A stretch of DNA of 54,047 nucleotides from Spirochaetota bacterium (GTDB taxonomy: Bacteria > Spirochaetota > UBA4802 > UB4802), in NCBI GenBank assembly GCA_040756435.1, contig JBFLZD010000024.1:1-54047 (forward strand), given 5' to 3'. The position numbers and the translations under genes are program-made. Shown here piece by piece: positions 26,490 through 50,236 of this stretch (its first letter is position 1; the number at the start of each line of letters is the position of its first letter). The notes beneath the pieces are model-generated. The model did not search any database. It worked only from the letters and a program-made list of their open reading frames with translations, and was not told the origin of the DNA.

Positions 26490-26563
26490 CACACAGAGAG
26501 CGCTTTTAAACACAGAGTTTTGGGATATATGCTCTGACCCCATTTCACAGCGCTCTCTGTGTG
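26490..26563. repeat. 15 bp inverted repeat enclosing a GCTCTGACCCC motif
   Basis: CACACAGAGAGCGCT (26490-26504) and its exact complement (26549-26563) flank a 44-base loop that contains TATGCTCTGACCCC (26528-26541), the short motif reiterated beside the transposase gene at 34.8 kb. It lies directly after the acyl-CoA synthetase gene and may also act as a terminator. Confidence 0.75.
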
Positions 26564-26626: not shown

Positions 26627-26674
26627 TTGACGAAAATCAAAATCATAGCTATATTAACAAGTACGAACGTTCGT
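26627..26674 (+). promoter_or_regulatory. Promoter and palindromic operator of the TetR-exporter operon
   Basis: TTGACG at 26627 and TATATT at 26650 are 17 bp apart. Seven bases after the -10 box comes the exact palindrome ACGAACGTTCGT (26663-26674), which would cover the transcription start. GAGGTG (26679-26684) then precedes the TetR ATG at 26688. The layout is that of an autorepressed TetR gene. Confidence 0.75.
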
Positions 26675-26687
26675 TCAGAGGTGAATT

Positions 26688-27281
26688 ATGAGCAATACAA
26701 TCACTGATAAGCGGCAGCAAATTCTTGATGTAGCAAAAGAGCTTTTTGCTACAAAAGGATATTCGGCCACAGGCATACGTGAAATAGCCGAAAAGGCGGG
26801 ACTGTCGCTTGGGAATTTTTATAATTATTTTAAAAATAAAGAGGATTTATTTAAAAGCCTGCTTGATCCTGAAAATATACTTATGCATCTTACTCAGATA
26901 AAGCAGATGTTAAATAACAATTTCCCCTTTAATTTTAAAGATATACTAAAGGCAATTAAATTAGTTGTGGATAATGATTTCCATCTCTACAGGCTTATAT
27001 TTATTGATCTTACCGAATTTAACGGATTATACACAGATAAAATACTGGATCGCATCATTCAGGAAGCAACCACAACCTTTAATACCAATGTTAAAAACGC
27101 AATTGTAGGACGCATCATAAAAGACGATGATTACCAATTTTACATCAAAGCATTCATTATATCAACCTTGTCACTTTTGGTCATTGGAAAAATTTTACCA
27201 TCTGCAAATTTTAACGATTCGTCTGATGATTATATTGCTGAAAAGCTTTCCAATGTCATATTGCATGGGATTTTGCTATGA
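26688..27281 (+). CDS. TetR-family transcriptional repressor
   Basis: 197 residues. The N-terminal helix-turn-helix is typical: RQQILDVAKELFATKGYSATGIREIAEKAGLSLGNFYNYFKNKEDL. The C-terminal ligand domain (from about residue 60) is divergent and hydrophobic, which would suit a fatty acyl or other lipophilic ligand. An exact palindrome lies on its promoter. Its stop overlaps the ATG of the next gene (ATGA), so it is the first gene of an export operon and most likely represses it until a hydrophobic substrate binds. Confidence 0.92.
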   Translation: MSNTITDKRQQILDVAKELFATKGYSATGIREIAEKAGLSLGNFYNYFKNKEDLFKSLLDPENILMHLTQIKQMLNNNFPFNFKDILKAIKLVVDNDFHLYRLIFIDLTEFNGLYTDKILDRIIQEATTTFNTNVKNAIVGRIIKDDDYQFYIKAFIISTLSLLVIGKILPSANFNDSSDDYIAEKLSNVILHGILL

Positions 27282-28705
27282 GGTATACACCATACATATT
27301 TTTTTGGGCGATAGTTACTGTAATAGTAAGCAGGGTTGCCTTTGCACAGGAACCTTTTAGCCTTTTATCCGTAGAAGACAAACCAACCGCAAGCATCAAG
27401 GGATTTGTTGAAATTGACACCACCACGTCCACCTATCCCCATCAGGAAACAGCTGACATCTTTAAAAAAGATGAACTCAAAGCAAACACCACTATCAAAT
27501 ATGGCAAGGAGTCATTCTATGTTTATACTGATATACATGCATATCTATTGCCAAATCTGATTAACAAAAACATAAATCCTGCATATCGATATGCATCACA
27601 AACCGACATCCTGCGAAATGGCACCGTTACATCCAGCAATGCAGAAATTAATTTTCGTGAATGTTATATAAATTATGAGATTGGCTCTGTACGCTTGCGT
27701 GCAGGCAATCAGATATTTGCATGGGGAACTGCCGATGCATTTAACCCAACATCGTATTTCAACACATACGACCTTCGTGAATTTCTGTTTAAGGATGAGG
27801 ACACCGAACTCAAGATGGGAGTACCCGCGCTGTCAATGCTTATAACGCTTGGCAATGATACACTTGAGCTTGTTGTCACACCGCTGCATGTGCCACTGCG
27901 CATGCCACAAGCTGACACATTCTGGCAACTGAATGTAAAGGAGGGCCCTTTTCCGGTAACTATCGCACAACCCCAAACCCTGCCTTTTGAAATTGCCAAT
28001 GCTGGCGTTGGTGCGCGCTACTACCACAATGTTGCCGGCTTTGATGTCCACCTGAGTGCATACCACGGTCCTGACACACAGCCATATCTTTTGCCGGTAC
28101 AAACTATATTAAAGCCAAATGAACCGGTTTCAATTCTGGTTGAGCCACACTATGCTATAGTAAACATGGTGGGCACTGCGCTATCAAAGGCATACAAAGA
28201 TTTTGTATTTCAGGTTGAGGCTGTCTATAGCCCTGATAAAACGGGCGTTGTGGATGTTGATTTGCAAAACTTGAGTGCAGCACAGCTTGCAACGCTTCTT
28301 CCCTACAAAACGCGCAAGAGCCATTTTGTAACGTATTCGGCTGGCTTTAATTATTTCATCCCCATCCGCGATTATTTCAAAGAGCACGAAGGGCAATGTG
28401 TGTTTACCTTTGAGTGGAGTCAGTCACACTTTTTTAATGAAGAACTTATGAAGCCAATGCTTTCGGACATTGTTGTGCTGAGATTACAGGATAGCTTTCT
28501 TAATAACAAGCTCACTGTAAAGATAAGCTCATTTATTGAAACGCAAACAAAAAGTTATATGATAATGCCTCACGTTAGCTACCGCTTTGACAGCGGGATT
28601 AACTTTGACGTAACGTACATATATCTAAATATGACAAAAGACTCATATTTTGCAGGCTACAACAACAATGATTGCGTAACAGGGAGGATTAGCTATGAAT
28701 TCTAA
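27278..28705 (+). CDS. Outer-membrane beta-barrel protein, DUF1302-like
   Basis: 475 residues. Signal peptide MRYTPYIFFWAIVTVIVS...AFA. The mature protein has alternating strand patterns and ends in GRISYEF, a C-terminal Phe suited to BAM-dependent insertion. The segment RLRAGNQIFAWGTADAFNP followed by YDLREFLFKDEDTELKMG resembles DUF1302-type barrels (RxGRQxxxWGxxD...INPxDLREFLF), often found with RND exporters. It is likely the outer-membrane pore or receptor of the system. The start overlaps tetR by 4 bp, and the end overlaps the lipoprotein gene by 11 bp. The GCGATAGTTAC motif encodes AIVT in its signal peptide. Confidence 0.8.
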   Translation: MRYTPYIFFWAIVTVIVSRVAFAQEPFSLLSVEDKPTASIKGFVEIDTTTSTYPHQETADIFKKDELKANTTIKYGKESFYVYTDIHAYLLPNLINKNINPAYRYASQTDILRNGTVTSSNAEINFRECYINYEIGSVRLRAGNQIFAWGTADAFNPTSYFNTYDLREFLFKDEDTELKMGVPALSMLITLGNDTLELVVTPLHVPLRMPQADTFWQLNVKEGPFPVTIAQPQTLPFEIANAGVGARYYHNVAGFDVHLSAYHGPDTQPYLLPVQTILKPNEPVSILVEPHYAIVNMVGTALSKAYKDFVFQVEAVYSPDKTGVVDVDLQNLSAAQLATLLPYKTRKSHFVTYSAGFNYFIPIRDYFKEHEGQCVFTFEWSQSHFFNEELMKPMLSDIVVLRLQDSFLNNKLTVKISSFIETQTKSYMIMPHVSYRFDSGINFDVTYIYLNMTKDSYFAGYNNNDCVTGRISYEF

Positions 28706-30413
28706 AATACTCTTTGTGGCGATAGTAACTGTTATAGCCTTTACTTCCTGCGGAGCACTACAGGAGGAATCGGCAGTCATTGCTGGCTTGGTCACGGTGG
28801 ATGAAGGAATTTCACGGACTGAAAGCGCCCCTGTTTTTGTTGCCATTGCTAAAAATGGCGATATGGAAGCCATACAAAACGATCCTGCCAACACCATCAT
28901 TACCGTCATCCAACCCGATGAATCAGGGGAGTTTACCCTTGCGTGCAAAGACTATGGATTAAACAGCGGCGATGAGGTTTTCTTATTTGCGTTTATAGAC
29001 AATGATTATGCGGGCGGCATCTCCTTCCCCACGCCTGGCGATGCGGTTGGCTTTTACAATAATGGATTTAAGCTTTCGTACACCATTGGCATTGATGGCC
29101 AGGCAGATATACATATTAACAGGCAGCAGTACAATTTTAATGCAAGCATCATTGGCATACTTGATGGCAATGAAAGTGGCAATGTCATTCTGATTGCATA
29201 TGCAGGAGATTTCAATTCAAGCAACTTTTCTGATATTGATATTGATGCAGTGATTGCGTATAAAAAAATCATAAAGCCTGCATATCCGGTAAGCTTTACC
29301 CTTCCTGTCATGCCGTATGGATACGATGTCCCAATTGGAGGCGTCTATATCATAGCACTACTGGATGCAAATAATAACGGAATCCCCGACGAAGGCGACA
29401 CCATTGGCTTTGCTGTTGAACCAGGCAGCAATACACCGGTAGCCGTAACCATTACCGATGGTGTGGTTTCTGCTTCTACCATTAGGTTTCTTATGCCCAT
29501 ATACGGTGAACCTGCTACCAATGATCCCCCATTAACCATCACAGGCCAGTTTGATGCTCCAGCCGGATATAGCTCTGACCCCGCCACCAAGCCAATATTT
29601 ATAGTGGTAGCTAAAGGCTCTGACCCCAATGAGGTATTTACCAATATCAAGAACTTAAACACCCAGACATTTGACTTCACCCGCGTTACACAGGGGGAAA
29701 ACAGTTTTGCTCTGACCCTTTCGCGAAGTAAATTTAACCCCGGTGATAGTGTATTTATCTTTGCCCTGTGGGATAAGGATTATGAAAGCGGTTTGCCTTC
29801 ACCAACACAAGGTGATATGTTGGGATTTGTTATGAATAAAAACAATTTTGAATATACGGTTATTCTACAGGAAGGTGATAACCAGTTAATAAAAAGTGGA
29901 TCCCAGTATATATTTAATGGCCATAATGGATATTCATTTACACTGAATAGGAATATATATAATCATAGTGCAGCTATTCGTTTTCAGCTGGAAAAAGGCG
30001 CTTTAAATGATACTCAATTTGCAAACGGGACAAAGGTCCTGGTTGTTGCTGTATATGAAACAGACTCCATATCAACAGGTTATGCTATAGATATGGATAA
30101 AATTATTGCAACAGCTACTGTGCGCATAAACAGGCAAACAGGTTCAAACACCACCGTATATTATAGCATGCCGGTAATGCCAGCACTGCTTGATTCAATT
30201 CCAGCACTACAGGATGGAGAGCTTTGTATTGATAATATATGGGTACTGGCAGTGCTTGATAGCAATGGTAACGGTAAACCTGATGATGGTGAACGGATAG
30301 GATTTTACTGGGGATATTTTATAATTTATTATCCAATAAAGCTTCCATCTCCATTAGGAGATGGTACAACAATTTTAAACAAAACAGTACGTTTTTCAAG
30401 TTATACCTATTAG
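28695..30413 (+). CDS. Lipoprotein with repeated EF-hand-like acidic loops
   Basis: 572 residues. The signal peptide ends in AFTSCGAL, a good lipobox. The mature protein is built of repeated beta-sandwich-like modules. Acidic loops recur: DNDYAGGISFPTPGD, DANNNGIPDEGDTIGF, DKDYESGLPSPTQGD and DSNGNGKPDDGERIGF. The DxNxNGxxDxGD pattern is that of calcium-binding EF-hand-like or thrombospondin-3-like loops, and each is followed by (L/I)GF. I do not recognise the whole protein as a named family. Tight overlap with the barrel gene implies a stoichiometric partner, possibly a periplasmic or surface-exposed plug or ligand-binding subunit. The last 140 bp before the RND gene has no obvious terminator. 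Confidence 0.75.
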   Translation: MNSKILFVAIVTVIAFTSCGALQEESAVIAGLVTVDEGISRTESAPVFVAIAKNGDMEAIQNDPANTIITVIQPDESGEFTLACKDYGLNSGDEVFLFAFIDNDYAGGISFPTPGDAVGFYNNGFKLSYTIGIDGQADIHINRQQYNFNASIIGILDGNESGNVILIAYAGDFNSSNFSDIDIDAVIAYKKIIKPAYPVSFTLPVMPYGYDVPIGGVYIIALLDANNNGIPDEGDTIGFAVEPGSNTPVAVTITDGVVSASTIRFLMPIYGEPATNDPPLTITGQFDAPAGYSSDPATKPIFIVVAKGSDPNEVFTNIKNLNTQTFDFTRVTQGENSFALTLSRSKFNPGDSVFIFALWDKDYESGLPSPTQGDMLGFVMNKNNFEYTVILQEGDNQLIKSGSQYIFNGHNGYSFTLNRNIYNHSAAIRFQLEKGALNDTQFANGTKVLVVAVYETDSISTGYAIDMDKIIATATVRINRQTGSNTTVYYSMPVMPALLDSIPALQDGELCIDNIWVLAVLDSNGNGKPDDGERIGFYWGYFIIYYPIKLPSPLGDGTTILNKTVRFSSYTY

Positions 30414-30554
30414 GATAATTATTTGATAGTATGCGTTTTTCATCACATGAAAAGTGAGGATAAGGGATAGTGAAAATACTAATTATTATCTATTTTTAAA
30501 TGGGGTTTCCCATTATTTTAAATACTAAAACTAATCTAACATAAGGAATGGAAT

Positions 30555-33221
30555 ATGAAAAAGTGGCTCAACATTATACTAACCTATCCAAAAACAGTAA
30601 TAGCAATCATCATTGCTATCACCATTATCGTAGGCAGTGGTGTATTTACAATAAAGTTTGATAGCTCCATTGAAGCGGTTATGCCAAAAAAAGATCCTGA
30701 ATATCTACTCAATGAAGAAGTGAAGAAGATATATGGCAATACCGGCAAATTCATAATTATTGATGTGAATTCCAGCAACATGTTGCAACCGCACATTTTA
30801 TCGCTGGCATCGCATCTTCACGATGACTTAGAAGAATACCAGAAGTTTGATGAAGCAAAAGAAAACAGGCGGTTGACCTTGTTACAGGAACTATCGCACA
30901 ATAAAAGCATATCAATACAAAAACTGTACCAGACGTTTGCCGATGACCCTGCGTTTATACGATACCTCAAGCGTACATTGCAGGAGCTTTCCATTCAACA
31001 CGGTACCCTTTCAAAGCACGACCTGACAAAGATTATCAAAAAATTTACAAAGACAATTGAAATAAAACAAAGCCAGACAGTGGATTTGATACTATCCCCA
31101 TTTACTATGAAAGATCTTTTAGGTAAAAGCGATACGCTATATGTTCGCGATATCGTTGAAAAGGATGAATTGGGAAAACGAAAGATCCCACAAACCAAAG
31201 AAGAGATTGCTGAGTTTAAAAAACGCCTTACTAACAACCCCGCCTTTGAAAAAGGGATTTATGTAAAAGATGCCAATGGCACTATCACTGACTTTGGAAT
31301 ACTTTTACGCTTAATTGACCAGCCTGTGTATGATCCGCTAGTCAAGGAAATTGAAAGCGTTACATCTTTTTACCAGAAAGACATTACTATTATTTTGCAA
31401 GGAATGCCCGTTACTCACCATGAAATAAATGAATATATGAAAACCGACTTAGAGCGTTTCCTGCCCCTGGTACTTGTTGCTATGCTTATTGTGTTTTATC
31501 TTAACTTCAGGTCCATACGGGGGATGTTACTTCCCTTTTCTACTATTGTGCTTTCGGACCTGTGGGTCATTGGCCTTATGGGACACTTAGGCTTTAAGCT
31601 CAATGTCATTGGCGTAGCACTTCCACCACTTATGGCAGCAGTAGGTAGCTCGTATTCAATTCATATCTTAAACCAATACTTTAAAGAATGCAAGAACATT
31701 AAAACAGGAAAAATAAATGTGATTAAATCCTCACTGTTGCATATTTCGTTAACTGTTATTCTTGCAGGGTTCACCACATTTTTAGGATTTATCACATTAT
31801 CCACCAATCAGGTTTCATCAATCCGCGAAATGGGCATTTTTGCTGCATTGGGAGTGCTTTTTGCAGTAGTCATTTCATTAACACTCATCCCTGCATCTCT
31901 GGTACTATTGCCCGAAACTGCAAAAACAATACACTTTACGTCAGCAGTATTATCATATATTAATAATTTGAATTTAGTGGAAAGGATGGTAAAAATACTT
32001 GCAGGCTGGGCAGTAAACAAAAGTGCACTGGTCATTAGCATTTTGATTGTAGCGCTTGGTGTTGCGTTTGTTGGTATGTCAAAAGTAAAAGTTGAAACTT
32101 CGGTGCACGCGTATTTTAAAGAAGGCGACTATGTGCTGACAAGTTCAAAGATTATTGGGCAAAAATTTGGAGGAGCAGCAGGATTGAATATCCTTATTGA
32201 TACCGGCACACCTGATGGAGCAAAAAACCCACACATACTACAGTTTGTTGATAACTTCAGGAACTGGCTTACAGATGAAAACAATATAGATTTAAATATT
32301 GGCCGCACAGATGCATTTACTGATTTTATTAAAACAATAAACTTAGCAATGCACAACAACGATTTTACGTACTATTCCATTCCTGAAACCATACAAGATG
32401 TTGATAGTTACATAGATTTATATAGTGGTAAGGATGATAATGACAACGGCCTTGCAGATGAGTTTGAACCGTATGTTGATAGAAAATTTACCACACTGAA
32501 TATCTTTGCTCGCTTGTGGGAAAAGGAAGGAAAATTTTTAAGCACAAACACTATGCATCACATTATAAATAAAATACAAAATTATCTTGATACCAATATC
32601 CCTGAAGGGTGTACCTATAAAATTACCGGTGAGCCTAAGGTACTGGTGCGGATGTCAGAATATATTGTGCAGGGTCAGGTGATGAGCCTGGGATTGAGTT
32701 TACTTAGTATTTTTGTGGTGGTGCTGCTTATCTTTCATAATCTCAAAGCTGCATTGGTATCGCTCATTCCCATTAGCACTGCGGTGCTTCTTAACTTTGG
32801 TGTGATGGGATTTTTAGGCATTCGCCTTGATATGGCAACAGCCATTATTGGAGCAATTACGGTAGGTATAGGGATTGATGACACCATACACTTTATCAAC
32901 ACGTACCGGCATTTTCACTTAAAGGGATTGCAACAAAAAGAGGTAATTATAAAAACACTCAACCAGGCTGGTGTTGCAATTATGTATACATCACTTGCAT
33001 TAATATTTGGATTTTTAGTGCTGGTAATCTCCAGCTTTAAACCCGTTATATATTTTTCGGTATTGTTGGCAACAACAATGATTACAACAACCTTGGGAGC
33101 ACTTTTGTTTTTACCTGCAACTATTAATTTACTACAGCTTGATCTATCACCTATGACACATACATCACGATTGCTGGAATATTTTAATTTAGGGAAATAC
33201 TTTGAATTTGAATCTGAATAA
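30555..33221 (+). CDS. RND-superfamily exporter (MMPL/HpnN-like)
   Basis: 888 residues with the two-fold RND plan: membrane helix 1 at about 12-32, a large periplasmic domain, a bundle of five helices (from LVLVAMLIVFYLNF to about LIPASLVLLP), then a second helix-periplasmic domain-bundle unit. AITVGIGIDDTIHFINTYR holds the paired acidic residues of the proton relay in the second bundle. The protein is shorter than AcrB-type pumps and matches the hydrophobe/amphiphile exporters that move lipids, hopanoids or sterol-like compounds. Context with a DUF1302-like barrel and a LolA-like protein supports lipid export. The periplasmic loops have an acidic segment (SGKDDNDNGLADEFEPY) that again looks calcium-binding. 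Confidence 0.9.
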   Translation: MKKWLNIILTYPKTVIAIIIAITIIVGSGVFTIKFDSSIEAVMPKKDPEYLLNEEVKKIYGNTGKFIIIDVNSSNMLQPHILSLASHLHDDLEEYQKFDEAKENRRLTLLQELSHNKSISIQKLYQTFADDPAFIRYLKRTLQELSIQHGTLSKHDLTKIIKKFTKTIEIKQSQTVDLILSPFTMKDLLGKSDTLYVRDIVEKDELGKRKIPQTKEEIAEFKKRLTNNPAFEKGIYVKDANGTITDFGILLRLIDQPVYDPLVKEIESVTSFYQKDITIILQGMPVTHHEINEYMKTDLERFLPLVLVAMLIVFYLNFRSIRGMLLPFSTIVLSDLWVIGLMGHLGFKLNVIGVALPPLMAAVGSSYSIHILNQYFKECKNIKTGKINVIKSSLLHISLTVILAGFTTFLGFITLSTNQVSSIREMGIFAALGVLFAVVISLTLIPASLVLLPETAKTIHFTSAVLSYINNLNLVERMVKILAGWAVNKSALVISILIVALGVAFVGMSKVKVETSVHAYFKEGDYVLTSSKIIGQKFGGAAGLNILIDTGTPDGAKNPHILQFVDNFRNWLTDENNIDLNIGRTDAFTDFIKTINLAMHNNDFTYYSIPETIQDVDSYIDLYSGKDDNDNGLADEFEPYVDRKFTTLNIFARLWEKEGKFLSTNTMHHIINKIQNYLDTNIPEGCTYKITGEPKVLVRMSEYIVQGQVMSLGLSLLSIFVVVLLIFHNLKAALVSLIPISTAVLLNFGVMGFLGIRLDMATAIIGAITVGIGIDDTIHFINTYRHFHLKGLQQKEVIIKTLNQAGVAIMYTSLALIFGFLVLVISSFKPVIYFSVLLATTMITTTLGALLFLPATINLLQLDLSPMTHTSRLLEYFNLGKYFEFESE

Positions 33222-33260
33222 AATACAAAACACTAAATTTATTATATAAGGAGGCACATA

Positions 33261-34028
33261 ATGAAAAGATTTCTAATGGTAGCTTTGTGTATTATAAGCG
33301 GTGCGATAGTTACTGTGTATGCAATGACTGGCAGGGAAATAATGGAAAAGTCAGATGCGCTGACCGAGCCAAAAACTGCAATAAGTAAAGCAACGATGGT
33401 AATTTACAAAGGTGGTGATACACTCACGCGAACTATCGAAATGATGGCAATGAAGGTTGGGCAAAATGACAAAGTGCTTGCCGTAGTCAAGGAAGAACCA
33501 GGTGGTGATATTACCAAGGTATTGACACATACCAATAAATCAGGTGAAGATATGCAATGGGTTAAAATGCCCAACGGGAAAGTGAAGCGTATATCTTCAG
33601 GAGATCGCAGTGGTGCGTTTGTCAATTCACATATCTTTTATGAAGATTTGCGATCCCGGAATATTGATGATTATGAATACACCTTGTTGGGAGAAGAAAC
33701 TGTTGAAGGATATGCTTGCTATAAGGTTGAAGCAAAACCAAAACCTGGCAAAAGCATTTATGATAAGGCAATATTTTTTATCATAAAATCAGGCGAATTT
33801 CAGTACTTTGCTGTACGTATAGATATTTTTTATGAAGGATATCTTTACAAACGGTTGATTAATTATAATCTGAAAAAGGTTGATGGCATCATTACACCCT
33901 ATAAAGCTGTTATGTATAGATTGGACAAAAGTGGGCAAAATTTAGGCCGAACCGAAGTAACCATCACAAATCTGCAATACAATAATCCAGCAATTAACGA
34001 GGGTATGTTTAATCAAGGTAAATTATAA
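33261..34028 (+). CDS. LolA-like outer-membrane lipoprotein-sorting protein
   Basis: 255 residues. A signal peptide (MKRFLMVALCIISGAIVTVYA) precedes a single domain with the pattern of the Pfam LolA-like family found beside RND exporters: TMVIYKGGDTLTRTIEMMAMK, MQWVKMPNGKVKRISSGDRSGAFVNSHIFYEDL and LLGEETVEGYACYKVEAKP. The fold is an open half-barrel that carries acyl chains across the periplasm. AGGAGG lies just before the ATG. It closes the export operon and is followed by a good terminator. The GCGATAGTTAC motif again encodes AIVT in its signal peptide. Confidence 0.88.
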   Translation: MKRFLMVALCIISGAIVTVYAMTGREIMEKSDALTEPKTAISKATMVIYKGGDTLTRTIEMMAMKVGQNDKVLAVVKEEPGGDITKVLTHTNKSGEDMQWVKMPNGKVKRISSGDRSGAFVNSHIFYEDLRSRNIDDYEYTLLGEETVEGYACYKVEAKPKPGKSIYDKAIFFIIKSGEFQYFAVRIDIFYEGYLYKRLINYNLKKVDGIITPYKAVMYRLDKSGQNLGRTEVTITNLQYNNPAINEGMFNQGKL

Positions 34029-34056
34029 TTCAATCGTTCCTTTTCTTAACTCCTAT

Positions 34057-34093
34057 TGCAGGCGTGTAACAATGTTAGCGCCTGCATTTTTTT
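34057..34093 (+). terminator. Rho-independent terminator of the exporter operon
   Basis: TGCAGGCG (34057-34064) pairs with CGCCTGCA (34079-34086), with an inner AACA/TGTT extension in the loop, and seven T follow. It lies 29 bp after the LolA-like stop codon. Confidence 0.85.
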
Positions 34094-34149: not shown

Positions 34150-34700
34150 TGTTAAATATAGGCTCTGACCCCTTACAATAGTATCACCCCTCAGGGGTTT
34201 TATAGTAAATAATAGCATGTCATCCTGAACTATGTCCTGAATTTATTTCAGGATTGATTCAGTGTAGTCATCCTGAACGTGATTCAGGATCTCATTGGTG
34301 GGAACAAGAGATTCCGGATCAAGCCCGGAATGACGTATAGGCAACAAGTCATCCTGAACTTGATTCAGGATCCTTATAAGGCTCTGACCCCTTACAATAA
34401 TATCACCCCTTCGGGGTTTCATGATGATGTTTAGATAGTATGCTCTGACTCCACTAAGGATCTTACATATCTTCCTATCATTAAGGATTTGCCCCCTCAA
34501 AATCCCACTATCTTTCCAATAACTCAGCACACTCTGCATGCTCTGCGTGTTCCATCAGTTTGTTTCACACAAAGACCGCAGAGATGGGGAGGATGAGGCT
34601 CTGAACCCTTACAATAATATCAACCCTTCGAGGTTTGAATGATGTTGTGATGGGGTTGTGAAGATAATATGCTCTGACCCCATGTTTTTTAATTTTTTCA
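34150..34700. repeat. Cluster of GCTCTGACCCC motifs and interspersed palindromes
   Basis: The gap 34094-34807 has no gene on either strand. GCTCTGACCCC or a one-base variant occurs at 34162, 34381, 34442, 34598 and 34671. Three of these are followed by acaata(a/g)tatcacccc with a C/G hairpin, the same unit as in the tandem array at 3.5 kb. Between them (34225-34372), cctgaac.tgattcaggat and ccggatcaagcccgg form nested inverted repeats also seen at 24.3 kb. Confidence 0.8.
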
Positions 34701-34807
34701 TCAAAAAGTACAAAATTTTTCCCAATTCCTTTTAATTTTTTCCACCAAAAGCGTTGTATACAGTAGAAGCTTAATTTACCTATTATAACAAAACACGGAG
34801 GAATACT

Positions 34808-35404
34808 ATGGCACGGAAATTGCGTGTACAAATGCCCGGTCTTACCTATCACATCACTTCCCGCTGCATTGAGTGGCGAAATATGTTAGAAGAAGAGTAC
34901 TTTAAAGCCTGCTTTGTGGAAATTTTACGCAGAGCAAAAGAAAAATACCCGTTTAAGCTTATTGCCTACTGTATTATGGACAACCACATCCATTTGGTTA
35001 TTCACACGGTAGATGATGGAGCACCTATAGGACGCATTATGCAGTATATTAAGGCACGGTTTGCAGAACTGTATAATAAGGTAACCGGAAGGACTGGTCC
35101 TTTCTGGAATGAGCGGTATAAAGATAGCATTATACAATTTGCTAAAGATGGGTTTCACTATTTATTGTGGTTGTTGTGGTATTTGGCGTATAATCCGGTA
35201 CGGAAAAACCTATGCTCTGACCCCACTACATACCATTACAGCAGCATAAAAGCATATTTACAGGAGGATGCCGATGTAGGTGTGCCAATAGACCATCATG
35301 ATTACTTTGTACAGTTAGGGGAAACCTTTGCCAAGAGGGTGGCTTCGTTTATGCACTACGATGCAATATATCGCAAGCGGTATTCTATTGTAGGGTGGGT
35401 GTAA
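34808..35404 (+). CDS. REP-associated tyrosine transposase (RAYT, IS200/IS605-like Y1)
   Basis: 198 residues starting MARKLRVQMPGLTYHITSRCI, the usual RAYT beginning. The HUH metal motif is in YCIMDNHIHLVIHTV. GPFWNERYKDSII provides the likely catalytic Tyr. The conserved end block is LWYLAYNPVRKNLCSDPTTYHYSSIKAY. These single-strand-specific nucleases mobilise short palindromic repeats. Repeats with GCTCTGACCCC cluster in the 700 bp before the gene, and the gene itself contains TATGCTCTGACCCC at 35211-35224, coding for LCSDP. The gene is intact, with AGGAGG-like cggaggaat before its ATG. It stands alone without terminal repeats of its own. Confidence 0.9.
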   Translation: MARKLRVQMPGLTYHITSRCIEWRNMLEEEYFKACFVEILRRAKEKYPFKLIAYCIMDNHIHLVIHTVDDGAPIGRIMQYIKARFAELYNKVTGRTGPFWNERYKDSIIQFAKDGFHYLLWLLWYLAYNPVRKNLCSDPTTYHYSSIKAYLQEDADVGVPIDHHDYFVQLGETFAKRVASFMHYDAIYRKRYSIVGWV

Positions 35405-46059: not shown

Positions 46060-47943
46060 ATGGTATCGGTATCAATGCGTAATCAACTGGCAGATCAAAG
46101 GGATGTTCATTTTGTACTTTTTGAACTACTCAAACTGGATGAATTAAAAAAAATTCCACGTTTTGCTGATCATGATAAGGATATATATGAGGCAACGATC
46201 GATCTGGCATTCAGAATGGCAGTAGAAGAAGTATATCCTGTTAATAGGGAAGCAGACAAAATTGGCGTTAAATACAACCCTGAGGCTAAAAAAGTAATCA
46301 TTCCTGATTTACTCAAAGCCCCATTGAAAAAATATAATGAAGCTGGATTTGTTGGAATAATGGAAGAGGCTGAAATTGGTGGAATGGGTATGCCATTTAC
46401 CATAGCAATAGCGTGTAATGAGATTTTCACCGCAGCAAGCCTTGCATTCACATCATATCCTTCCCTTGCTCATGGTGCAGCAGCACTCATCAAGAATTTT
46501 GGCACTGAAGAACAGAAAAAAATGTATCTGGAAAAAATGCTTACCGGGCAATGGGGTGGTACCATGTGCCTTACCGAACCTGAAGCTGGCTCTGATGTGG
46601 GTAACCTGAAAACAAAGGCTATTCCTCAGCCTGATGGTACGTACCTCATTCAGGGACAAAAAATTTTTATAACCTCAGGCGATAACGATTTTTATGAAAA
46701 TATTATTCATCCGGTTCTTGCCCGCATTGAAGGCGATCCACCCGGAACAAAAGGCATTTCCATATTTATAGTACCAAAGTACAGAGTGAAACCTGACGGC
46801 AGTTTAGGTGAGTTTAATGATGTCATATGTTCTGGTATTGAGCACAAGATGGGTATCCATGGTTCTGCTACCTGTACATTGAACTTTGGTGATAATGGCA
46901 AATGTGTTGGGTGGTTGTTAGGGCAACCTCGACAGGGAATGAAGATCATGTTCCACATGATGAATGAAGCTAGACTTGATGTTGCCTTGCAGGGGCTTTC
47001 GTTGTCATCTACCGCCTACATGCATGCAGTCACATATGCACGCAACCGCATACAGGGCGTTCACGTAACCCAGATGCTCAATCCTGAAGCACCAAAAGTA
47101 GCTATTATTGAACATCCTGATGTTAAACGCATGCTTTTGTGGATGAAAGGCTATGTGGAAGGCATGCGTATGCTCAACTACTATCTGGCACATAATGCAA
47201 CGCTGATTGAAGTACTTGACGGCGATGCAAAGAAAGAAGCCCAGGGTATGGTGGAGATACTTATCCCTATTGCAAAAGCTGGCTGTACCGATACTGCTGT
47301 GCTGGTTACCTCAGAAGCTATTCAGGTCTATGGTGGTTATGGATACACTTCCGATTACCCCGTTGAGCAGTACATGCGTGATGCCAAGATAACTCAGATT
47401 TATGAGGGCACCAACGGCATTCAGTCCATGGACTTAACCATGCGCAAAATCCTCATGAATCCCGAGCAATACAACTACAATGTCATGAAAAAACGCATGG
47501 CCCAAACTATTGCCAAAGCCAAAGGTATAGTTGAAGATAAATACATTGAGTTAGTTGAAAAGGGAATCCAGAGGTTAGATGAAGTCATCACCATGTTGAA
47601 AGATCAGATGGCAGCAGGTAAATTTTTACACATCTTTGCCGCCTGTACACCATTGCAGCAGGCCATGTTCATGCTGACGCTGGCATGGCTGCATCTGTGG
47701 TCACTGACATTGACCATACCAAAGATGAAAGAGCTAGTAGGCGACAAAAAAGGCGAAGAGCGTGACAAATTCCTTGCTGACAATGAAGAAGCAGCATACT
47801 ATTCCGGACGTGTTTTATCATCACAGTTTTATCTGGGTGCTGAATTTCCAAAATTCTTTGGCCGGATTGATGCGCTGCTGTTTAATGAAACTGCGGTTAT
47901 TAAGGCAAGTAAAGACATCTTTACCGGTGCGCTGTTAGAGTAG
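46060..47943 (+). CDS. Long-form acyl-CoA dehydrogenase (DmdC/FadE-like), copy 1
   Basis: 627 residues; GGGGG at 46048-46052 precedes the ATG. The core has CLTEPEAGSDVGNL, GTYLIQGQKIFITSGDNDF, SGIEHKMGIHGSATC, VYGGYGYTSDYPVEQYMRD and the catalytic IYEGTNGIQ. An extra C-terminal helical domain of about 140 residues is present, as in the ~600-residue branch that includes DmdC and related broad-chain enzymes. From 46471 to the stop the DNA is identical to copy 2, whereas the first ~137 codons differ at about a third of residues. It stands alone behind its own promoter and ahead of a strong hairpin. Confidence 0.93.
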   Translation: MVSVSMRNQLADQRDVHFVLFELLKLDELKKIPRFADHDKDIYEATIDLAFRMAVEEVYPVNREADKIGVKYNPEAKKVIIPDLLKAPLKKYNEAGFVGIMEEAEIGGMGMPFTIAIACNEIFTAASLAFTSYPSLAHGAAALIKNFGTEEQKKMYLEKMLTGQWGGTMCLTEPEAGSDVGNLKTKAIPQPDGTYLIQGQKIFITSGDNDFYENIIHPVLARIEGDPPGTKGISIFIVPKYRVKPDGSLGEFNDVICSGIEHKMGIHGSATCTLNFGDNGKCVGWLLGQPRQGMKIMFHMMNEARLDVALQGLSLSSTAYMHAVTYARNRIQGVHVTQMLNPEAPKVAIIEHPDVKRMLLWMKGYVEGMRMLNYYLAHNATLIEVLDGDAKKEAQGMVEILIPIAKAGCTDTAVLVTSEAIQVYGGYGYTSDYPVEQYMRDAKITQIYEGTNGIQSMDLTMRKILMNPEQYNYNVMKKRMAQTIAKAKGIVEDKYIELVEKGIQRLDEVITMLKDQMAAGKFLHIFAACTPLQQAMFMLTLAWLHLWSLTLTIPKMKELVGDKKGEERDKFLADNEEAAYYSGRVLSSQFYLGAEFPKFFGRIDALLFNETAVIKASKDIFTGALLE

Positions 47944-48364: not shown

Positions 48365-50236
48365 ATGATGCGCAATCCACTTGTAGACGGGCGTGATGTC
48401 CAGTTTGTCTTGTTTGAACTATTAAAAATCGATGATTTAAAAAAGTACCCAAAGTTTGCTGATCAGGACAAGGATATGTATGAAGCCACCATTGACTTGG
48501 CATTAAAAATGGCGGTTGAAGAAGTGTATTCAGTAAACAAGGAGGCTGACAAAACTGGTGTCAAATACGACCCTGAAACCAAAAAGGTAATGATTCCGGA
48601 AGGATACAAAAACGCTCTAAGAAAATATAATGAAGCTGGATTTGTTGGCATGATTGAAGATCCAGAAATTGGTGGAATGGGTATGCCTGGTGCAGTTGCA
48701 ATGTCATGCAGTGAAATTTTTACCTCAGCCAGTTTATCATTCACAACCTATCCTGGCCTGTCACATGGTGCAGCAGCACTCATCAAGAATTTTGGCACTG
48801 AAGAACAGAAAAAAATGTATCTGGAAAAAATGCTTACCGGGCAATGGGGTGGTACCATGTGCCTTACCGAACCTGAAGCTGGCTCTGATGTGGGTAACCT
48901 GAAAACAAAGGCTATTCCTCAGCCTGATGGTACGTACCTCATTCAGGGACAAAAAATTTTTATAACCTCAGGCGATAACGATTTTTATGAAAATATTATT
49001 CATCCGGTTCTTGCCCGCATTGAAGGCGATCCACCCGGAACAAAAGGCATTTCCATATTTATAGTACCAAAGTACAGAGTGAAACCTGACGGCAGTTTAG
49101 GTGAGTTTAATGATGTCATATGTTCTGGTATTGAGCACAAGATGGGTATCCATGGTTCTGCTACCTGTACATTGAACTTTGGTGATAATGGCAAATGTGT
49201 TGGGTGGTTGTTAGGGCAACCTCGACAGGGAATGAAGATCATGTTCCACATGATGAATGAAGCTAGACTTGATGTTGCCTTGCAGGGGCTTTCGTTGTCA
49301 TCTACCGCCTACATGCATGCAGTCACATATGCACGCAACCGCATACAGGGCGTTCACGTAACCCAGATGCTCAATCCTGAAGCACCAAAAGTAGCTATTA
49401 TTGAACATCCTGATGTTAAACGCATGCTTTTGTGGATGAAAGGCTATGTGGAAGGCATGCGTATGCTCAACTACTATCTGGCACATAATGCAACGCTGAT
49501 TGAAGTACTTGACGGCGATGCAAAGAAAGAAGCCCAGGGTATGGTGGAGATACTTATCCCTATTGCAAAAGCTGGCTGTACCGATACTGCTGTGCTGGTT
49601 ACCTCAGAAGCTATTCAGGTCTATGGTGGTTATGGATACACTTCCGATTACCCCGTTGAGCAGTACATGCGTGATGCCAAGATAACTCAGATTTATGAGG
49701 GCACCAACGGCATTCAGTCCATGGACTTAACCATGCGCAAAATCCTCATGAATCCCGAGCAATACAACTACAATGTCATGAAAAAACGCATGGCCCAAAC
49801 TATTGCCAAAGCCAAAGGTATAGTTGAAGATAAATACATTGAGTTAGTTGAAAAGGGAATCCAGAGGTTAGATGAAGTCATCACCATGTTGAAAGATCAG
49901 ATGGCAGCAGGTAAATTTTTACACATCTTTGCCGCCTGTACACCATTGCAGCAGGCCATGTTCATGCTGACGCTGGCATGGCTGCATCTGTGGTCACTGA
50001 CATTGACCATACCAAAGATGAAAGAGCTAGTAGGCGACAAAAAAGGCGAAGAGCGTGACAAATTCCTTGCTGACAATGAAGAAGCAGCATACTATTCCGG
50101 ACGTGTTTTATCATCACAGTTTTATCTGGGTGCTGAATTTCCAAAATTCTTTGGCCGGATTGATGCGCTGCTGTTTAATGAAACTGCGGTTATTAAGGCA
50201 AGTAAAGACATCTTTACCGGTGCGCTGTTAGAGTAG
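48365..50236 (+). CDS. Long-form acyl-CoA dehydrogenase (DmdC/FadE-like), copy 2
   Basis: 623 residues; GGAGG at 48354-48358 before the ATG. The domains and motifs equal those of copy 1. Residues from HGAAALIKNF onward are identical and the DNA is identical over about 1.48 kb (48764-50239). The first ~133 residues are related but distinct (VNKEADKTGVKYDPETKK against VNREADKIGVKYNPEAKK). Substrate contacts differ only in the N-terminal helical domain, so the pair may differ in substrate or partner while sharing an identical catalytic body. Sequence identity runs on past the stop to cattgtgcagg with one mismatch, then ends. Confidence 0.93.
   Translation: MMRNPLVDGRDVQFVLFELLKIDDLKKYPKFADQDKDMYEATIDLALKMAVEEVYSVNKEADKTGVKYDPETKKVMIPEGYKNALRKYNEAGFVGMIEDPEIGGMGMPGAVAMSCSEIFTSASLSFTTYPGLSHGAAALIKNFGTEEQKKMYLEKMLTGQWGGTMCLTEPEAGSDVGNLKTKAIPQPDGTYLIQGQKIFITSGDNDFYENIIHPVLARIEGDPPGTKGISIFIVPKYRVKPDGSLGEFNDVICSGIEHKMGIHGSATCTLNFGDNGKCVGWLLGQPRQGMKIMFHMMNEARLDVALQGLSLSSTAYMHAVTYARNRIQGVHVTQMLNPEAPKVAIIEHPDVKRMLLWMKGYVEGMRMLNYYLAHNATLIEVLDGDAKKEAQGMVEILIPIAKAGCTDTAVLVTSEAIQVYGGYGYTSDYPVEQYMRDAKITQIYEGTNGIQSMDLTMRKILMNPEQYNYNVMKKRMAQTIAKAKGIVEDKYIELVEKGIQRLDEVITMLKDQMAAGKFLHIFAACTPLQQAMFMLTLAWLHLWSLTLTIPKMKELVGDKKGEERDKFLADNEEAAYYSGRVLSSQFYLGAEFPKFFGRIDALLFNETAVIKASKDIFTGALLE

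Follow-up and report, generated by a model that had tools for sequence, protein, structure and literature searches.

A putatively TetR-controlled envelope operon of Spirochaetota joins a DUF1302 barrel, an RND pump and a LolA-like carrier to a lipoprotein of an undescribed family

The AmeABCD system of Castellaniella defragrans consists of a DUF1302 barrel, a protein of the LolA superfamily, a fourth periplasmic protein and an HAE3 pump, and its deletion lowers the tolerance to monoterpenes (PMC6394551). In aryl polyene clusters, resistance-nodulation-division (RND) and LolA-like proteins have been proposed to send the aryl polyene lipid to the outer membrane (PMC8253772), and the BstABC sterol transporters are reported to combine an RND-type inner-membrane lipid mover with a periplasmic and an outer-membrane protein (PMC10942540). 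Thalassolituus TOL_3187/TOL_3188 place MMPL and LolA-like domains beside a porin and are co-induced by a long-chain alkane (PMC6304351). Transporters of the RND-LolA-barrel type are widespread and almost all of them are uncharacterised, the handover from carrier to barrel being a gap in knowledge. The system described here is located at positions 26627-34093 of a stretch of 54,047 nucleotides (nt), the window, which is one contig (JBFLZD010000024.1) of a 3.6-Mb draft genome of a Spirochaetota bacterium. The listing of open reading frames (ORFs) revealed five plus-strand genes in this region, encoding a TetR-family regulator, a barrel, a lipoprotein, an RND/MMPL pump and a LolA-like carrier. 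The name LIPO is used for the 572-amino-acid (aa) lipoprotein and for its family.

LIPO is an undescribed protein family, without any Pfam or NCBIfam match (none in Pfam even at E ≤ 1), in agreement with an original prediction, made from the letters of this stretch, that the lipoprotein could not be matched to a described system. A profile search has revealed LIPO in 15 genomes of a single Spirochaetota order, out of 46 genomes drawn from that order, and nothing convincing in about 345 other Spirochaetota (393 genomes scanned), where one local match of 57 residues was obtained (genome G179). A GTDB-wide scan with one LIPO sequence, which reaches close relatives only, returned congeners only, no homologues were found in plasmids, and the LIPO profile gave nothing significant against the PDB. 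Seventeen complete LIPO loci were counted, leaving out two others cut by contig ends, and in 13 of them the gene directly upstream of LIPO encodes a barrel related to that of the window. The overlap between both genes is exactly 11 nt at nine of these 13 loci, as in the window (where the TetR and barrel genes also overlap, by 4 nt), and 14 and 17 nt at two others, with a gap in G014. Among the order genomes, the RND pump was present in 13 of the 15 with LIPO vs 3 of the 31 without it (p 5e-7), the LolA-like carrier in 14/15 vs 2/31 (p 7e-9) and the barrel in 13/15 vs 1/31 (p 1e-8), p values that ignore shared descent and depend on presence as set by author-chosen identity thresholds.

A gene-neighbourhood analysis, proposed to find out if the lipoprotein is lost from the operons of relatives, showed that homologous operons in other families keep LIPO. 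The pump and carrier genes belong to the operon within the genus and one further family, and are located elsewhere in the genome in other families; the operon can be called self-contained, as it was originally, in the former groups and not in the latter. Some RND-LolA-barrel sets of the phylum lack LIPO, most of them belonging to this order (G031, G034, G037, G010 and G007) and one lying outside it (G112), and a DUF1302-MMPL-LolA trio is carried by plasmid pHIC of Haliovirga abyssi, a member of another phylum, Fusobacteriota. LIPO is therefore an added part and not a core requirement. The whole system is accessory, since congener G002 lacks LIPO, the barrel, TetR and close relatives of the pump and the carrier.

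The regulator, with its helix-turn-helix domain, scored 65.5 bits for TetR_N (Pfam cut-off 24), and its own promoter carries a palindromic operator. The perfect palindrome ACGAACGTTCGT is located at 26663-26674, downstream of the -10 hexamer and ahead of the TetR start, and has only two exact copies in the 3.6-Mb genome. Comparison of congeners revealed diverged intergenic flanks and an unchanged operator element and -35. The consensus GAACGAACGTTCGTTC precedes TetR in 10/10 loci from ten genomes and five families, with operator-bearing TetR loci of the four further families in G035, in G009 and G030, in G006, and in G017 and G021. The operator is the centre of a 32-bp perfect palindrome in G035, and in G006 and G021 it lies in a region common to TetR and a divergently oriented LolA-like gene. 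The pump genes of G017 and G021, located elsewhere in the genome, each have their own operator copy 50-90 nt upstream. The element is specific, because a scan of 38 loci allowing up to 3 mismatches gave matches nearly confined to these TetR, LolA and pump places, with two others. At the sequence level, the operator copies link the barrel, LIPO, pump and carrier genes in one putative regulon, with predicted binding by TetR.

Two additional occurrences of the element were observed. In G021, two tandem copies precede a gene for an exported metalloprotease-like protein with an HExxHxxGxxH-type motif (L217:1350-1395, G021:C85), a possible extra regulon member in one genome. The second exact ACGAACGTTCGT palindrome of the source genome (L234:7864, G000:C23:15863) is found between etfBA and a phosphatase/acyl-CoA dehydrogenase pair, and it is kept in five congeners. 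A regulon joint with beta-oxidation was considered and rejected: G002 keeps the site at the etfBA locus though it lacks this TetR, and a weak TetR homologue is found at that locus. This palindrome is probably the operator of another TetR, a second repressor.

All parts of the operon that had been named from the sequence are present according to the ORFs and to Pfam (TetR, DUF1302, MMPL and LolA_like). The barrel matched DUF1302 (PF06980) over residues 109-352 with 32 bits (cut-off 23.2), and its AlphaFold2 (AF2) model (pLDDT 86, pTM 0.81) has fold matches in AlgE (Foldseek E 9e-12) and in Occ/OprD channels (OccAB1, Z 22.8). The pump matched MMPL (PF03176) in two stretches, covering both halves, with 107 bits (cut-off 20.5); its best-matching curated subfamily was HAE3 (TIGR00921, E 9e-69 and 232.3 bits, under the cut-off of 351.9), and the BstA profile gave 39 bits for a cut-off of 1400. 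In the pump clade, transmembrane helix 4 (TM4) carries GSSYSIH, without the usual Asp, and TM10 carries GIGIDDTIH, which retains it, so that the RND proton-relay pattern, with an acidic residue in both helices, is not present. An EF-loop-type sequence is found in the second periplasmic domain of the pump (DDNDNGLADEFE here, typically DxDSDGRIDxFE) in all clade members covering the region, including those of systems without LIPO, and it is absent from the distant RND proteins of G006 and G025. The carrier matched LolA_like (PF17131) with 112.6 bits (cut-off 30) over profile positions 3-182 of 184, its solved relatives being 4z48, 3bk5 and 9tp6 (phmmer), and gave no DUF1329 match at E ≤ 0.1. These parts would make up a route of inner-membrane pump, periplasmic hydrophobic carrier and outer-membrane channel. 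The early pump-carrier-barrel interpretation is well supported by these families and folds, export direction and substrate being its conjectural side.

As judged by eye, LIPO has a signal peptide with a lipobox cysteine (MNSKILFVAIVTVIAFTSC-G), and full-length relatives have a cysteine at the matching place. Its AF2 model, built with 15 relatives (pLDDT 84), appears to consist of two A-B units, which make four consecutive beta-sandwich domains, as read from secondary structure and fold matches; the relatives have one to about four A-B units. There is one acidic loop per beta-sandwich domain. Loops 2 and 4 (DANNNGIPDEGD and DSNGNGKPDDGE) fit EF-loop spacing, and loops 1 and 3 follow another 15-residue motif, DxDYxGGxPxPTxGD. 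The four loops are not due to chance, because all of them hold residues invariant across the 15 relatives, but they are not EF hands, since they connect beta strands in the model. No EF-hand Pfam match was obtained for the window LIPO at E ≤ 1, and matches were weak in 3/15 relatives (best 0.0026). The four EF-hand-like loops of the original prediction thus remain as four conserved acidic loops, two of them with EF-loop spacing, and not as EF hands; calcium binding by them is plausible. Fold searches gave weak-scoring matches to adhesins, pilins and fimbrillins built of tandem beta-sandwiches. Domain 1 was best matched by 3e8v (Z 8.7), and domain 2 by the secretin pilotins ExsB and AspS (Z 7.7, rmsd 3.7 over 97-103 residues), at a score level at which a widespread beta-sandwich arrangement may account for the match. 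These domain-level matches of the model are leads, not a classification. No DUF3261/LolB-like match was found at E ≤ 1 in LIPO or in 14 relatives.

The predicted framing of the operon by an operator and a terminator has been confirmed (Table 1). The terminator is strong and follows the carrier gene; it folds well, but the consensus terminator scan did not list it, apparently owing to its broken stem. The number of promoter-like matches across the region was not above chance in the consensus scan, but the -35 is conserved in congeners; the number of terminator-scan matches was likewise uninformative.

Table 1. Features of the operon and their positions in the window.
Feature	Position	Strand	Evidence or remark
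Predicted sigma-70-type promoter TTGACG-17-TATATT	26627..26655	+	-35 kept upstream of the TetR gene in 3 operon-bearing congeners and other families
TetR operator GTACGAACGTTCGTTC, family consensus GAACGAACGTTCGTTC	26661..26676	+	Directly 3' of the -10, 5' of the TetR start
TetR-family repressor, 197 aa	26688..27281	+	PF00440 E 3.7e-18
Outer-membrane beta-barrel, DUF1302, predicted OprD/AlgE-like 18-strand type, 475 aa	27278..28705	+	PF06980 E 9.1e-8; AF2 model
LIPO, order-specific lipoprotein, 572 aa	28695..30413	+	Lipobox FTSC, Cys19 at 28749-28751; four tandem beta-sandwich domains (model)
LIPO acidic loop 1 DNDYAGGISFPTPGD	residues 102-116, 28998..29042	+	D102 and D116 invariant in 15 relatives
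LIPO acidic loop 2 DANNNGIPDEGD	residues 224-235, 29364..29399	+	EF-loop spacing
LIPO acidic loop 3 DKDYESGLPSPTQGD	residues 360-374, 29772..29816	+	Conservation in relatives
LIPO acidic loop 4 DSNGNGKPDDGE	residues 522-533, 30258..30293	+	EF-loop spacing
Inner-membrane RND (MMPL/HAE3-like) transporter, 888 aa	30555..33221	+	PF03176 E 1.2e-30
EF-hand-type loop DDNDNGLADEFE in RND porter domain	residues 627-638, 32433..32468	+	In every clade member covering the region
Periplasmic LolA-like carrier, 255 aa	33261..34028	+	PF17131 E 2.2e-32
Intrinsic terminator	34057..34093	+	-17.4 kcal/mol, z = -4.3
Dispersed motif GCGATAGTTACTGT within the signal-peptide codons of the barrel gene	27308..27321	+	
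Dispersed motif GCGATAGTAACTGT within the signal-peptide codons of the LIPO gene	28719..28732	+	
Dispersed motif GCGATAGTTACTGT within the signal-peptide codons of the LolA-like gene	33303..33316	+	

From the parts, the gene order, the conserved operator, the barrel-LIPO coupling and the co-occurrence, all established at the sequence level, we give about even chances to a TetR-controlled trafficking of a hydrophobic or amphiphilic compound through the envelope, in outward direction, with LIPO as the outer-membrane partner of the barrel; direction, substrate, calcium binding and physical contact are what we infer. TetR would be freed from the GAACGAACGTTCGTTC element between the -10 and the tetR gene by an inducer, which may be the substrate itself or a metabolite of acyl type. 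The RND pump would then take the compound out of the inner membrane, the LolA-like protein would ferry it over the periplasm in a hydrophobic cavity, and the OprD/AlgE-like barrel would pass or deposit it at the outer membrane. LIPO, lipid-anchored at its N-terminus and metal-stiffened at the acidic loop of each beta-sandwich, would be the dedicated partner of the barrel, acting as a docking or positioning stalk for barrel and carrier.

Several observations weigh against this proposal. G039 lacks a close LolA relative, the operon of G006 holds a different RND gene, and LIPO genes without an adjoining barrel are found in G035, G014, G017 and G021, some of them next to further lipoproteins of a beta-sandwich, surface type. 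The variable number of LIPO domains fits a stalk of fixed length poorly, proton coupling in the pump may be unusual, as its TM4 has no Asp, and substrate and direction are reached by inference. Besides, some LIPO paralogues without the full operon (L042:2172-7628, L043:6152-11632 and L038:5575-10171) adjoin large lipoproteins whose repeats, judged from the sequence, are like those of Ig, cadherin or laminin-G, a hint that some LIPO members may act at the surface. A more far-reaching form of the proposal is distinctly improbable: LIPO would be a new outer-membrane accessory, a calcium-stiffened beta-sandwich stack of variable length that is translated with the barrel, spans the periplasm to the carrier or pump and so takes over the function of a membrane fusion protein, while the acidic loop in the porter domain of the pump would render the whole line metal-dependent.

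Efflux of solvents or xenobiotics strictly as in AmeABCD, in which TetR would sense a toxic lipophile and the system would expel it with no cell lipid involved, is considered unlikely, although the gene types match those of AmeABCD, for which a tolerance phenotype is known (PMC6394551). The accessory distribution, with a congener devoid of the system, would also suit efflux. Drug-efflux operons are usually laid out for autorepression by TetR through an operator beside the -10, and here the operator adjoins the -10. However, the operon contains neither a membrane fusion protein nor TolC and has no AmeC-like (COG4447) annotation, and a dedicated PF17131 carrier suits a lipid better than a small solvent. 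Uptake of fatty acids or hydrocarbons, with import by the OprD-like barrel, capture aided by LIPO and activation of the substrate by the adjoining acyl-CoA synthetase, seems rather unlikely. The Thalassolituus MMPL-LolA protein and its adjoining porin leave room for it, as they are induced on long-chain alkane (PMC6304351), and substrate-specific Occ channels come out as the top fold matches of the barrel. In addition, several acyl-CoA dehydrogenases are encoded in the window and the synthetase is directly upstream of the operon in the genus, but in four other families it is not next to the loci, export is the typical role of RND pumps, and the conserved unit has no periplasmic oxidation or import module. 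The lipid substrate initially suggested by the synthetase neighbour was set aside as weak, this adjacency being limited to the genus; a link to acyl metabolism is possible.

The idea that LIPO is itself the cargo, an adhesin-like surface lipoprotein delivered or displayed by the barrel (with the LolA-like carrier), is very doubtful. It would explain the strict barrel-LIPO coupling and the repeat number varying from one to about four units, and it is consistent with the resemblance of the LIPO domains to fimbrillins, CnaB/SpaA pilins and adhesin extender repeats and with the paralogues adjoining lipoproteins with cadherin-like or Ig-like repeats. It leaves the RND pump unexplained, however, the barrel resembles small-molecule channels and not Omp85 or Slam, and low-Z matches of single beta-sandwiches are common. 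LIPO, being translationally coupled to the barrel and apparently co-regulated with the pump and carrier in five families, is a concrete candidate for the missing outer-membrane part. With its conserved operator, the regulon is open to direct in vitro tests even though these organisms are uncultured.

Other sequence elements were observed in the window. The signal-peptide codons of the barrel, LIPO and LolA-like genes carry common nucleotides (GCGATAGTTACTGT) that are conserved in congeners while the surrounding codons differ, with one change in two LolA copies and with T or A as the ninth base. These nucleotides belong to a dispersed motif, GGCGATAGTTACTGT with core GCGATAGT, whose core has window sites at 27308, 28719, 33303 and 44218 and 22 others, no other 8-mer of the window being as over-represented (26 copies in 54 kb vs 0.56 expected). 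The exact 14-mer occurs 97 times in the source genome, 68-97 times in each of five congeners and never or once in each of 54 other genomes, sister genus included; it is found on both strands, and 25 of 44 intragenic copies fall within the first fifth of their gene. The motif seems to be a dispersed DNA signal specific to the genus, possibly similar to uptake sequences or to HIP1. Another dispersed repeat, GGGTCAGAGC (GCTCTGACCCC), is located at 26530, 34161 and 34383 and in L031-L033, and it is very frequent in congener contigs, where it is the top 8-mer. The region 34160-35404 includes a Y1 transposase gene of the IS200-like/REP-associated type (34808-35404) beside several palindromic TCATCCTGAACTTGATTCAGGATC-like repeats, a possible REP/RAYT pair. 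Two tandem acyl-CoA dehydrogenase genes (46060-47943 and 48365-50236) have translations that differ over roughly the initial quarter and seem identical from there on, which points to a recent duplication or gene conversion.

Among the known systems, BstABC and the hopanoid transporter HpnN resemble this operon as RND-type inner-membrane lipid movers. Their partner proteins presumably belong to families other than those found here. In Thalassolituus TOL_3187/TOL_3188, MMPL and LolA-like domains are fused in one protein, no LIPO has been reported and expression is alkane-induced. The pHIC trio of Haliovirga abyssi has genes of these three families next to each other, but it has no LIPO homologue, adjoins radical SAM and ketoacyl-synthase genes, and its pump is 30% identical. 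ApeL-ApeM-ApeN share a LolA-like carrier, an RND transporter and an outer-membrane lipoprotein with a proposed lipid delivery to the outer membrane (PMC8253772), whereas ApeN is a DUF3261/LolB-like lipoprotein, no barrel is included and the genes are set in a biosynthetic cluster. Judged by its components, AmeABCD comes closest among the systems that have been tested, a single cassette encoding a DUF1302 outer-membrane barrel, a periplasmic protein of the LolA superfamily, a pump of HAE3 type and one more exported protein. The carrier differs, AmeB being a DUF1329 protein and the one described here a PF17131 protein, and so does the fourth protein, AmeC belonging to COG4447 and LIPO being a tandem beta-sandwich lipoprotein without family matches, the two set apart by description. 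The gene order is also different, and the spirochaetal operon includes a TetR gene with a conserved operator and an acidic loop in the porter domain of the pump.

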